Shown here in pieces: positions 5,266-12,222 of a stretch of 32,221 nucleotides of DNA (the stretch's first letter is position 1; every line of letters starts with the position of its first letter). The position numbers and the translations under genes were made by a program. This DNA comes from Methanosarcinaceae archaeon (GTDB lineage: Archaea; Halobacteriota; Methanosarcinia; Methanosarcinales; Methanosarcinaceae): NCBI GenBank assembly GCA_013329415.1, contig DUKH01000047.1, positions 6,813 to 39,033 of the forward strand, written 5' to 3'. The notes below the pieces were generated by a model, which had not been told where the DNA came from, did no database searches, and worked only from the letters and a program-made list of their open reading frames with translations.

Positions 5266-5269
5266 TTTC

Positions 5270-5424
5270 TTTGAAAACAGCTCAAATAGTTTTTAAAATA
5301 GCTCAAATAGCTTTTAAAACAGCTCAAATAGCTTTTAAATAGTTCTAATCGCTTTAAAAACAGCTCAAATAGTTTTAAAATAGCTCAAATAGCTTTTAAA
5401 TAGTTCTAATCGCTTTAAAAACAG
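5270..5424. repeat. tandem repeats, 20-bp unit within a 61-bp higher-order unit
   Basis: About seven degenerate copies of a 20-21-bp unit like AGCTCAAATAGCTTTTAAA occur. On top of this, a 43-bp segment at 5321-5363 recurs identically at 5382-5424, giving a 61-bp period of three basic units. The array fills the gap between the converging HAD and fttA genes. Confidence 0.85.
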
Positions 5425-5509
5425 ATATAATTTCTTTAAAAACTGATCGATTAACTTTTAATACAGCTCTAATTCATATCCTAAAAATGTTTTTTTTGTA
5501 AAAAATTTT

Positions 5510-5569
5510 GTTTTTAAGGAAAAAGAAATAAGGAAAAAGAAAAGTGGTGACTCTCCCGGGGGAGGTCAC
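5510..5569 (-). terminator. fttA terminator hairpin and U-rich tail
   Basis: On the minus strand, GTGAC + CTCC pairs with GGAG + GTCAC (5547-5569) with one bulged base. The fttA stop codon lies inside the stem. It is followed by a long pyrimidine tract with several T4-T5 runs down to about 5515. This has the form of a strong U-rich archaeal terminator. Confidence 0.7.
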
Positions 5570-7479
5570 AGCAACCTTACGGTTTCCAGGTTTGTAAGTG
5601 CCCTGGTCTCGATCTTCAGTTTCTTGTAAATCGAGCTTGCAAGGTCGATACAGGCCTTTTCTTCCCCGTGTTCGGTGAAGACCCTTTCGGGGCGGGGCTG
5701 CATCTTCTTGATGTAGTCCATGAGCTGCCTTCTGTCCGAGTGTCCGGAAAAACCGTCCACAACCTGCACTTCCATGTTCATCTTGAGGATTTCGGTGCTT
5801 CCGTTCTTTCCGGTCATGGGGATTTCCTTCCATCCTTTCTGGATCCGGCGCCCGGTTGTCCCGTCAGCCTGGTACCCGACGAATACAAGGGTGTTGCGGG
5901 CGTCTTCTGCAAAATTCCTGAAGTAGTCCATAACCGGCCCGCCGTTCATCATACCGGAGGTGGAGAGGATAACGCAGGGGTGCGGGTTCTGGATAATCTT
6001 CTGGCGCATATCGTGGGAGTCCACGGGCTTGAAACACTCTGCAAGGAAGGGGTTCTGGCCCTTCTGGAAGATCAGTTTCCTCAGGTCGTTGTTCAGGTAT
6101 TCGGGGTGGGTCGCATGGATCGCGGTGGCTTCCCAGATCATCCCGTCCAGGTAGACAGGGATATTGGGGATGATTCCTTTCCTTATGGACTCCTCGAGCA
6201 CGATCATGACTTCCTGGCTGCGTCCTACCGCAAAAGCCGGGATCAGGACAAGCCCTCCCCTCTCAATGGTTTCCTTAACAACCCGCTGGAGGTTCTTTTC
6301 AGAGTCCCGGAGAGCTGGCTGGAAGGCGTTTGCATTCCCGTATGTGGCTTCCGAAATGACGGTCTCAACTCTCGGGAACCTGTTGACTGCAGGGTCAAAG
6401 AGCCTGGTCTTTTCGTACTTGTAGTCCCCGGTGAAGACCACGTTGTGAAGCCCGTCCCCAATATGGAAGTGGGAAATTGCTGAGCCCAGGATGTGGCCTG
6501 CGTTGTGGAAGGTCAGTTTGATGTCCGGGGCAATGTCAGTAACCTCTTCGTAGTCCAGGGGGATGGTGTGTTTGAGGGTCTTTGTGATCATCGCTGATTC
6601 GTAGGGGATCTTTTTCCCTTCTTTTGCTGCCACGTCGATGTAGTCGAGCTGGAGCAGCACCATCAGGTCCCTGGTGGGAGGAGTACAGTAAACAGGCCCC
6701 TCATAGCCATACTTGAAAAGCAGAGGAACCAGGCCCTGGTGGTCCAGGTGGGCGTGAGTTACTATTACGGCATCGATCTGGTTAAGGGGGAAAACTTCCG
6801 GGACATAGAGGAAAGGGGTCATGTTCTCGTCGGAACCGACGTTGACTCCGCAGTCGATCAAGACCCTGGAATCCGGGGTTGAGAGCAGGAAACAGCTTCT
6901 TCCAACTTCCTTGCATCCCCCGAGTGCAGTTACCCTGACCCACTGGTCTTTTGATGTACATTCCCTGTGTATCTTCCTCCCCACGGATTTCAGGATTTCC
7001 TTCCTTTCCTTGAGGTTGTTCCTCATGAATTCTCTAATGTTCTTAACAGTACGGGATTTGATGGGTGGAGTCCTGGCAACCTTGGGGATCCAACCTATCT
7101 GTTTTGTGATCTCACGGAGGGTTGCGCCGTGCTTTCCGATGACAAGTCCCGGTTTTTCGGCTTCGATTATCACTTCTCCGGAGTCAGGATCAAAGTAGTA
7201 ACTTGAGATTACGGATTCCTTTGGAACAACTTCTTCGATGATAGAAATAGAGTCTTCGGGAGTTGCAAGCACCCTCAGGTCCGGGCGCATGGCGATGCGC
7301 GTCCGGAGTTCCTTTGCCAGGTTGCGGATGATGTTTCCGTCGTCAGCGAATTTGCGGGGTTCTTCTGTATAAAGTACGAGCTGGGGCCCCTCGAATTCGA
7401 CGTCGGTTATCGTAACTCCTGCCGGCAGATTTCTCTCAATTTTCTTTTTGAGGTCTAATAGCACGTCTTCAATAGGCAT
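5566..7479 (-). CDS. fttA: archaeal CPSF1 / FttA, transcription termination ribonuclease
   Basis: This 637-aa protein is the archaeal homologue of CPSF73, which cleaves nascent RNA after U-rich tracts and terminates transcription. An N-terminal KH region has a GKHG loop at about 115-118. The metallo-beta-lactamase domain carries THAHLDHQG (241-249), whose His/Asp residues bind two zincs, and further ligands in NAGHILGSA and FTGDYKYE. A beta-CASP domain is inserted, and the C-terminal part holds SGHSD and the conserved FTEHGE. All catalytic motifs are intact and the length is canonical. The ATG at 7479 is preceded by AAGGAAG at about 7 nt. It follows psmB in the same direction after 118 nt, a pairing I recall from other euryarchaea. 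Its leader holds a striking series of U-runs. Confidence 0.95.
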   Translation of the reverse strand: MPIEDVLLDLKKKIERNLPAGVTITDVEFEGPQLVLYTEEPRKFADDGNIIRNLAKELRTRIAMRPDLRVLATPEDSISIIEEVVPKESVISSYYFDPDSGEVIIEAEKPGLVIGKHGATLREITKQIGWIPKVARTPPIKSRTVKNIREFMRNNLKERKEILKSVGRKIHRECTSKDQWVRVTALGGCKEVGRSCFLLSTPDSRVLIDCGVNVGSDENMTPFLYVPEVFPLNQIDAVIVTHAHLDHQGLVPLLFKYGYEGPVYCTPPTRDLMVLLQLDYIDVAAKEGKKIPYESAMITKTLKHTIPLDYEEVTDIAPDIKLTFHNAGHILGSAISHFHIGDGLHNVVFTGDYKYEKTRLFDPAVNRFPRVETVISEATYGNANAFQPALRDSEKNLQRVVKETIERGGLVLIPAFAVGRSQEVMIVLEESIRKGIIPNIPVYLDGMIWEATAIHATHPEYLNNDLRKLIFQKGQNPFLAECFKPVDSHDMRQKIIQNPHPCVILSTSGMMNGGPVMDYFRNFAEDARNTLVFVGYQADGTTGRRIQKGWKEIPMTGKNGSTEILKMNMEVQVVDGFSGHSDRRQLMDYIKKMQPRPERVFTEHGEEKACIDLASSIYKKLKIETRALTNLETVRLL

Positions 7480-7597
7480 TAAAAATCTTCCTTTTTGTCA
7501 AAAAATCAAAAAATGTAAAATGATGGAAAAAAATTGTATTGGTAAAAAGATGTTAGTTTATATTTTAAAATAAACAACCAACAGTTTAATTTTTTTG
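7480..7597 (-). promoter_or_regulatory. psmB-fttA spacer with five U-runs
   Basis: Read on the minus strand, the leader of fttA contains, from upstream down, U5 (7544-7548), U7 (7527-7533), U4 (7517-7520), U6 (7508-7513) and U6 (7500-7505), with a further U5 at 7481-7485 beside the start codon. A short inverted repeat GTTTAT/ATAAAC lies upstream of them. The tract could end the psmB transcript and could let FttA control its own gene. Confidence 0.5.
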
Positions 7598-8230
7598 TTA
7601 GTTGAATAATGCCCTCTTGGCCTTTATAGCTCCCGGATCCAGCCTTGTGAATGTCTCCTTTGTAATTACAACCGCATCAACGTTTTCTCCTGAAGCGGAG
7701 TCCCTTTTCATTGAGTTGTGGATCGCCCGGACTGCAAGGTCAAGACCTTCCTCTACTGTCATGTCTTCCCTGTAGTGGTCTTCAAGGACGCCGTAAGCCA
7801 TGGGTGAACCGGAACCTGTGGCTGAGATCTTTGTCTCTTCAATGCTTCCTCCCAGCGGGTCCAGGGAATAAATGGAAGGCCCATTCTTGTCCATGCCTCC
7901 GATAAGGAGCTGAACCATCATTGGGTAATAGCGGTTTGCACTAAGTAAGTTGGACATCAAAGTGGTGATCCCTTTGATTGTCATGGATTCGTTCCTGCGC
8001 ATCTTATAGAGTTTCGATTCCACACTGATAAGCCGGACCAGCTGCTGGGCATCGCCGACAGAACCGGCAGTTGTCATCCCAACCAGGTCGTCTATCTGGT
8101 AAACTTTCTTTGCAGTTTTACTTGCAATGAAGTTTCCCATTGTGGCTCTCTGCTCGCTTGCGAGCACTATACCGTCGGTACATACTACTCCTACGGTAGT
8201 TGTGCCCTTTAGATATTTCTCATTATCCAT
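7598..8230 (-). CDS. psmB: proteasome subunit beta
   Basis: This is the catalytic beta subunit of the 20S proteasome. The propeptide MDNEKYLKG is cleaved before TTTVG, exposing the N-terminal nucleophile Thr10. Downstream are the catalytic Lys region ([11 protein letters not shown]) and the conserved SGSPMAYG and SASGEN segments. The 210-aa product is close to the M. thermophila protein as I remember it. The ATG at 8230 is chosen over the one at 8236 because GAGGG lies 7 nt before it and would be too close to the other. A promoter with BRE and TATA lies about 160 nt upstream. The alpha subunit is not in this window. Confidence 0.97.
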
Positions 8231-8305
8231 AAACATACCCTCATAATTAAACTTTAAAATGAGAAAATGTTGCTAAAAAAAATGTTTTGGTTGAGGTGAG
8301 CATTT

Positions 8306-8365: not shown

Positions 8366-8406
8366 CCCATTATCTCATTATTAATTTCGATATATATAAC
8401 TTTTCC
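8366..8406 (-). promoter_or_regulatory. predicted psmB promoter
   Basis: On the minus strand GGAAAAG (BRE-like, 8400-8406) directly precedes TTATATATA (8391-8399). Transcription would start near 8366, giving psmB a leader of about 135 nt. Confidence 0.6.
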
Positions 8407-8582
8407 TCTAATTTTTTTAATAATAGTGTTTTAATGTATCTTCAGGAGGCTGCTTCCGAAAAATTCTATGGGATTCTTTTTCGTCTCACAAATGCAGTCT
8501 CACAAATGCAACCTGAAGGTTTCCTTTAAAGGCCCTTCCGGCAAAGAAACTTCTTAGAAGCGTATTTTCATAGGTTCGTTTT

Positions 8583-8660
8583 AGAACCGTTTGATACAAC
8601 CTTTTTATAGGACCTTTCCGCAGAACCGTTTGATACGACCTTCTTATAGAACCTTTTCGC
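8583..8660. repeat. two 39-bp tandem repeats
   Basis: Copies at 8583-8621 and 8622-8660 both begin AGAACCGTTTGATAC and end CGC, differing at only a few positions. Confidence 0.8.
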
Positions 8661-8707
8661 AGAGATTCAACCGTCTCATAAAAACGTTCTATGCAGGTGC
8701 GCTTTAA

Positions 8708-11184: not shown

Positions 11185-12222
11185 TTAAATTGCAAAAAGC
11201 CCGTAAAAGGTCTTCAGGACAGGGATCTCGCTCCCGGCTCTGGCACTGAAGGAAACCGGTTTTTTTATTGCAACGGTTTCATAGGTCCTGGGGTCAAGCA
11301 CCAGAATTGCGTGTTCTTCGATGGAGACCAGCACGGTCATGACTGCATCGTTGATATGTGCCACCTTTTCAGCACCTTTCAGTTCCTCCGCGGGGATTGT
11401 GAAGCGGGACCCGTCTTCCAGGTATATGCCGTTAATCCTTTTCCCGGAATTCTTGATCTCGATTATTTTTTCCCTGTACCTTATTATATCCCCTGACCGA
11501 AACTCGGGCAGGCGCATGGCATATGTTATTCGGTAGACGTTTTTTCCGTCTTTCATTCCCACGAGGCTCGGGGATTCGGAATAGCTGCCCCCCATTTCCG
11601 AGGCAATGAGCCGGCAGACCTGTTTGCTGGCGTTCATGGAACCCATGTAAAGATCTGCCCCTTCTTTGAGTTCCTGGGTATCGGTGATGAAGGCAAGGCG
11701 ATCTCCTTTTTTCTTCATCTGCTGCATGGTTTCCCTTGCTATTGCAAGGGAACGCCTTTTCTCCTCTTCGGTGGGGAGTCTCCCTGCTGCCCTTACCTGG
11801 ATAATTGCTTCAAAGTATCCGCCGGCTTCCCTGCTGCACATGTCGCAGGCTTCCCTGCGGACCCTTACCTCGGTTTCAGCTTCGGCATGTACGGTCTCTC
11901 CCCTTACCAGGGCATCGACCTCCGCCCTCACAATATATATGTAAGGCGTAAGCTGCCGGGGTTCAAGGTAGACTTCGATATCCTCTGCTTCCTCATGGAT
12001 TAAGAGGGCGTCTTCTACGTCTTTTTCCACCACTTCTTCCAGGTTGCCGAAATCGTCCCAGCGGCTTTTGTGGAAGTACGCCCCACAGCGGGAACAGATC
12101 CTCAGGCTTATGACCAGGGGAAGTTCGATAAGTTTGAAGTTCTCAAAGAAGCAGTCCTTGCAAACGGAATCAAGGAGTTTCTCACATTCTCTGCCGCATT
12201 TCGGGCATATTACGTAATTCAT
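11185..12222 (-). CDS. archaeal NMD3 family protein
   Basis: This 345-aa homologue of eukaryotic NMD3 is a large-subunit adaptor; the archaeal form is presumed to act in 50S biogenesis. It has N-terminal zinc-binding Cys pairs (CPKCGREC and CKDC at about 6-23), a second pair in ICSRCGAYF (about 42-50) and a third in ACDMCSREAGGYFEA (about 129-143). An OB-like region follows, as in the archaeal form, which lacks the nuclear export and localisation tail. An AAGGA element precedes the ATG by about 7 nt. A possible TATA element lies at about 12311-12325, giving a leader of roughly 60 nt. The gene lies beyond the cdh terminator, so it is probably expressed separately from that operon. Confidence 0.9.
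   Translation of the reverse strand: MNYVICPKCGRECEKLLDSVCKDCFFENFKLIELPLVISLRICSRCGAYFHKSRWDDFGNLEEVVEKDVEDALLIHEEAEDIEVYLEPRQLTPYIYIVRAEVDALVRGETVHAEAETEVRVRREACDMCSREAGGYFEAIIQVRAAGRLPTEEEKRRSLAIARETMQQMKKKGDRLAFITDTQELKEGADLYMGSMNASKQVCRLIASEMGGSYSESPSLVGMKDGKNVYRITYAMRLPEFRSGDIIRYREKIIEIKNSGKRINGIYLEDGSRFTIPAEELKGAEKVAHINDAVMTVLVSIEEHAILVLDPRTYETVAIKKPVSFSARAGSEIPVLKTFYGLFAI

Follow-up and report, generated by a model that had tools for sequence, protein, structure and literature searches.

Bacterial RNases and Rho, which are other enzymes than FttA, autoregulate via their leaders, the enzyme acting in each case upon its own leader. In the archaeon M. maripaludis, FttA (there termed aCPSF1) needs at least two U4 tracts to bind well, and 736 of 961 units depend on both a U-tract and aCPSF1, according to PMC8716108. 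Terminators internal to M. maripaludis operons (ioTTS) are described in PMC10450193 as polyU sites that depend on aCPSF1 and that set the ratio of upstream to downstream expression; the junction between rpl37Ae and rpoP is given there as a proven example. For T. kodakarensis, the complex presented in PMC11616081 implies an optimal FttA site having U at -1 and a U-rich stretch at -9 to -14 relative to the cut, which falls 22 nt behind the RNA 3' end. As far as searches show, the literature searched holds no description of how the level of the archaeal general termination factor is controlled: no report of FttA/aCPSF1 self-regulation was found in it, and the accessible part of PMC8716108 has the word only in a cited title.

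Here the spacer ahead of an archaeal fttA gene is compared with these systems. The gene lies within a 32,221-nucleotide stretch of DNA, the whole of which was analysed and is termed here the window. The analysis establishes that this spacer contains a U-rich site, that relatives conserve it at a set distance ahead of fttA, and that its sequence agrees with the FttA site described in the literature.

The psmB-fttA spacer and its U-runs

The fttA gene (5566-7479, minus strand), which encodes the beta-CASP ribonuclease and termination factor FttA (aCPSF1), matches TIGR03675 with 1026.3 bits (cut-off 580.2); its first match, at 100%, lies in the window's own genome, and in an FttA tree its product falls among named Methanosarcina. 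The cistron upstream is psmB (7598-8236, minus), which encodes the archaeal proteasome beta subunit (TIGR03634, 268.9 bits; cut-off 224); that the two genes are neighbours is an old observation (Koonin et al. 2001, cited after PMC3095777). The 118-nt spacer between the two genes (7480-7597, minus), which constitutes the fttA leader, is 45% U. Degenerate AT-rich tandem repeats with 21-, 41- and 61-nt periods (5269-5466) lie a short way downstream of fttA, and a 39-nt tandem repeat (8582-8663) lies between TIGR00295 and psmB.

The original prediction listed runs of U5, U7, U4, U6 and U6 within about 50 nt, together with a U5 adjoining the fttA start codon, and both statements prove exact: the former runs occupy 49 nt (7548-7500, minus) and the latter lies at 7485-7481. 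A further U4 (7570-7567, minus) was missing from that list. The first U5 (7544-7548) is invariant across 20 aligned Methanosarcina sequences, whereas the U5 beside the start codon is not itself conserved, the corresponding stretch being UUCUU in most aligned relatives. The two U6 runs (7513-7508 and 7505-7500) form a U6-GA-U6 doublet, the proposed site of FttA binding and cleavage, with a predicted cut after 7500. Shortly after the doublet comes an A-run with a Shine-Dalgarno-like AAAAAGGAAG (7487-7496, minus), which is nearly invariant in the Methanosarcina alignment and which probably serves as the ribosome-binding site.

Both published descriptions of an FttA site apply to this stretch. The doublet, TTTTTTGATTTTTT at 7513-7500, has U at -1 and is U-rich at -9 to -14 (6/6 and 6/6), and the U7 (7533-7527) and U4 (7520-7517) upstream of it constitute a second site of the same geometry (7517-7533, minus), with U at all six positions from -14 to -9. 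Pairs of tracts of at least the length that binding requires are likewise present, the two U6 runs being two nt apart and the U7 and U4 six nt apart. A cut after 7500 would, when computed from the 22-nt spacing, place RNA polymerase at 7478, that is, within the fttA start codon.

How exceptional the runs are depends upon the standard of comparison. The five U5+ runs of the spacer exceed those of base-shuffled copies (P=0.0015), but they are not in excess over dinucleotide-preserving shuffles (P=0.13); hence the runs follow from the spacer being T-rich and TT-rich. Among real spacers of a sister genome (G001; a sample of 800 kb with 688 predicted genes), however, the psmB-fttA spacer is exceptional: of 51 further codirectional spacers that are 80-160 nt long, none has at least four U5+ runs, compared with 6 of 142 codirectional spacers of 61-300 nt and 6 of 188 convergent gene-end flanks of 120 nt. 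Single entries among the control spacers of this study may be wrong, because the genes were called with an ad hoc ORF finder that guesses their starts. The pattern U6-NN-U6 occurs once in the window, at 7513-7500 (0.08 copies expected), and 29 times across the 1.6 million strand-bases of the sister-genome sample.

The looser FttA geometry is common in that sample, being found in 104 of 671 leaders. The tight doublet (U5+ N1-3 U5+) occurs there in 3 of 671 leaders versus 20 of 685 gene 3' flanks, that is, about seven times more commonly at gene ends than in leaders, which marks the doublet before fttA as a gene-end signature placed in a leader. It is present in the fttA leaders of 24 of 27 Methanosarcina loci, and in 9 of 19, 9 of 17 and 2 of 22 loci of other Methanosarcinaceae, Methanoperedens/ANME-2 and Methanomicrobiales, respectively, in which single longer runs prevail. 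The doublet is therefore mainly a trait of the genus, and the long U-run the shared trait.

Between the psmB stop codon and the first U5 lies an inverted repeat, TGTTGGTT / AACTAACA (7551-7583, minus), with nearly invariant arms and a variable loop, which by exact pattern is the sole copy in its own genome. A hairpin at this place was considered as the key element but not retained. The signs of a hairpin-type intrinsic terminator are mixed: the arms are conserved and the loop varies, but none of 27 predicted pairs covaries and the fold is no better than that of shuffled sequences (z 0.64), as is likewise true of the folds of most other spacers. No Rfam family matches in the window. Spacers of some other Methanosarcinaceae carry stem-loops of other sequence (L089 and L092, at z -2.95), and four loci (L028, L029, L032 and L033) have a different, stronger stem-loop ahead of the U-runs, where comparison of L033 with L032 suggests a compensatory change. 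A leader element extending into fttA was considered and rejected: the first codons of fttA show reduced synonymous change, but so do those of psmB, and the effect is thus generic.

Conservation and placement before fttA

The region upstream of fttA was compared in 163 loci, consisting of a set of 80 loci taken whole, four loci of the same genus and 79 hand-picked loci (59 from 246 genomes, mostly one per genus, and 20 regions from 20 genomes); 160 of the 163 rows are distinct, and each of three pairs (L003/L009, L005/L010 and L014/L094) probably represents a single genome. Taxon labels follow the named loci next to which a locus falls in the FttA tree, in which the haloarchaea-like and Archaeoglobi-like loci are without a named neighbour. 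The feature was defined as a U5+ run that ends 8-40 nt upstream of the fttA start codon.

By this rule a U5+ run is present in all 85 loci of four groups combined, and a U6+ run in 82 of the 85: Methanosarcina (27/27 for both, in rows that hold 22 distinct spacers), other Methanosarcinaceae (19/19 for U5+ and 18/19 for U6+), Methanoperedens/ANME-2 (17/17 and 15/17) and Methanomicrobiales (22/22 for both). Elsewhere the corresponding counts are 3/3 and 2/3 for the group designated f3, 2/4 and 2/4 for Methanocellales-like loci, 1/6 and 0/6 for the Methanimicrococcus clade, 2/11 and 0/11 for f6, and 2/12 and 1/12 for the remaining loci; no U5+ run precedes fttA in the three ANME-2c loci, the 11 loci of f7, f9, f17 and f25, the 14 haloarchaea-like loci or the 14 Thermoplasmatota loci. 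The feature is mostly missing, then, in Methanimicrococcus, ANME-2c, haloarchaea, Archaeoglobi-like and Thermoplasmatota loci. The expectation that the U-runs be conserved in relatives is accordingly borne out throughout four methanogen/ANME groups, but not in several lineages that have the same gene order.

As a gene background, the same rule finds U6+ in 27 of 671 genes of the sister genome and in 11 of 351 genes of two Methanomicrobiales-like genomes (G077 and G199). In Methanomicrobiales the psmB-fttA spacer is merely 20-46 nt long (median 24), and these short spacers retain U6+ in 21 of 21 cases, compared with 1 of 26 and 4 of 26 control spacers of 15-60 nt. Within the spacer, 21 of 29 T-run columns are invariant versus 23 of 76 other columns (the Shine-Dalgarno block being excluded), a count that the alignment of T-runs itself favours.

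The run is placed with respect to fttA. Methanosarcina has its last run ending 20 nt (sd 0.3) before the start codon and Methanomicrobiales 12 nt (sd 1.1) before it, and in these two groups the anchoring is sharpest; in the other three groups compared, the sd of this distance ranges from 4.5 to 37. The distance from the psmB stop codon to the first run, in contrast, has an sd of 4 to 121. At two loci, moreover, the genes stand far apart, by 819 nt at L012 and 579 nt at L020 (a scaffold gap filled with N is included in one of the two), and still the U6 doublet adjoins fttA. Because the run is anchored on the start and is kept beside fttA across such long gaps, it is part of the leader of fttA and not of the psmB gene end; the fixed distance must owe in part, however, to the intervening Shine-Dalgarno block.

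The leaders of psmB and of the TIGR00284 gene (891-2372, minus) were examined as controls and both are U-rich. The psmB leader contains a U8 (8275-8282, minus) that is conserved in Methanosarcina and that may be a second FttA station of the same operon: a U7-U9 tract is present in 16 of 16 aligned Methanosarcina leaders, downstream of a TATA-like element, and U6+ in 18 of 18 distinct Methanosarcina leaders, in 9 of 16 and 10 of 15 leaders of the next two groups, and in 2 of 22 leaders of Methanomicrobiales. In Methanosarcina, 13 of 16 leaders of the TIGR00284 gene carry U6+. Five neighbouring genes (TIGR00295, TFE, ATP-grasp, ftsZ and the gene at 11185) lack a U6+ leader run in every relative compared. 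Since psmB has its own conserved U-tract, leader U-tracts are not peculiar to fttA within Methanosarcina, where such a tract is uncommon but not unique; what sets fttA apart is depth across orders. The original reading of the spacer as an FttA site is supported in part, the runs being real, conserved, tied to the start and a match to the published site; it is weakened by the U-tract of the psmB leader and by the lineages that lack the feature. The rpl37Ae-rpoP junction, used as a positive control in the window's own genome (L212, 1467-1494), has no U-run, and the rules for terminators may therefore differ here.

Proposed mechanism and its alternatives

The TATA-like element of the psmB leader, TTATATATA (8391-8399, minus), is invariant in 16 aligned leaders and is probably the operon promoter. 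No invariant TATA-like element was found before fttA in the Methanosarcina alignment, in which a TATA-like stretch occurs in only part of the genus. Because the sole invariant promoter-like element found precedes psmB, fttA mRNA probably originates from transcription that continues beyond psmB.

From this layout we infer cutting, partial termination and feedback at the fttA leader, as follows. RNA polymerase leaving psmB would make U-rich RNA, to which the KH domains of FttA would bind; FttA would then cut after the second U6 (at about 7500) with the polymerase near the fttA start codon (7478). The cut would precede emergence of the ribosome-binding site, and part of the polymerases would be released. 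The psmB mRNA would thereby gain its 3' end, and fttA mRNA would arise only via read-through. Sites of this kind require FttA for termination, and a higher level of the factor would therefore lower read-through--that is, a negative loop on fttA, provided that FttA is limiting. A role of the site as a partial terminator dependent on FttA appears probable, if not strongly so; that this terminator amounts to physiological feedback on FttA is more tentative, with chances somewhat below even. The best explanation of the whole, namely that the fttA leader holds a conserved terminator of the FttA type, which forms a negative loop if FttA is limiting, likewise falls a little short of an even chance. 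A fuller version is unlikely, though conceivable: FttA would determine its own abundance through cleavage of the nascent fttA mRNA at U6-NN-U6 while the polymerase is on the start codon and before ribosomes load; the U-tract of the psmB leader would extend the loop, such that one enzyme tunes both cistrons; and the loop would have persisted throughout Methanosarcinales and Methanomicrobiales but been lost where psmB and fttA became separated, as in haloarchaea.

The alternative that survives best, though on balance doubtful, is a constitutive internal terminator, whose U-tracts would end most psmB transcripts and set the psmB:fttA ratio, with FttA in excess and without feedback. The ratio-setting terminators within M. 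maripaludis operons offer a precedent, the spacer resembles a gene end, and RNA-seq coverage of the 3' UTR of M. mazei psmB (MM_0694) is reported in PMC11456600. The run, however, is anchored on the fttA start rather than on the psmB stop, and persists despite gaps of 579-819 nt; moreover, the broad dependence on U-tract and aCPSF1 in M. maripaludis implies that some loop exists unless FttA saturates.

Distinctly less probable is a leader element for translation or RNA stability, in which the U-run, rather than ending transcription, would keep the Shine-Dalgarno sequence open or bind another U-specific protein (such as Lsm/SmAP). The fixed position of the run, 12 or 20 nt before the start and near the Shine-Dalgarno sequence, fits such a role, as does the U-tract of the psmB leader, but the rarity of U6+ at that place among genes in general, its absence from the five neighbouring genes and the preference of doublets for gene ends all argue against it. 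A separate fttA promoter within the spacer, with the U-tracts merely ending psmB, is very improbable: a TATA-like ATATATAAAC lies about 80-90 nt before fttA in some Methanosarcina, but about half of the aligned species lack it, and a Methanomicrobiales spacer of 20 nt is too short for a promoter. Finally, AT-rich drift, by which the lineage would simply tend towards T-rich spacers that serve no function, is scarcely credible, given that the runs, though matched by dinucleotide shuffles, have no equal among the 51 comparable spacers and are better conserved than the columns around them, even if the alignment favours the latter count.

Relationship to known systems

The proposed FttA-type terminator resembles the M. 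maripaludis ioTTS, as these are presented in PMC10450193, in being an intergenic U-tract between same-strand genes for which FttA is the expected factor: psmB and fttA are codirectional (minus) and 118 nt apart, with the U-runs between them. It differs from the ioTTS in that the second gene of the pair encodes the very factor expected to terminate there, and in that the position of the run is fixed relative to the start codon of that gene. With the T. kodakarensis FttA terminator (PMC11616081) it shares, through U6-GA-U6, the U at -1 and the U-rich -9 to -14 stretch; here, in contrast, the site lies in a leader rather than at a gene end, and the cut is predicted.

Because the conserved FttA-type site is placed precisely in the factor's own leader, it offers a concrete test at a single locus, with the cut predicted to the nucleotide. 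The idea of autoregulation may be considered a good, testable hypothesis, for which comparative support is stronger than one sequence could provide. Its likeness to vertebrate PCF11, which is autoregulated by premature termination, is that the termination factor's own gene bears an early, conserved termination site--in the present case a termination-type site upstream of the factor's own gene in 85 of 85 loci of four groups. For PCF11, by contrast, a poly(A) signal within an intron provides this site, and both depletion of the factor and deletion of the site were tested, according to PMC6458999. If true, the FttA loop would parallel the self-limitation of PCF11 in animals.
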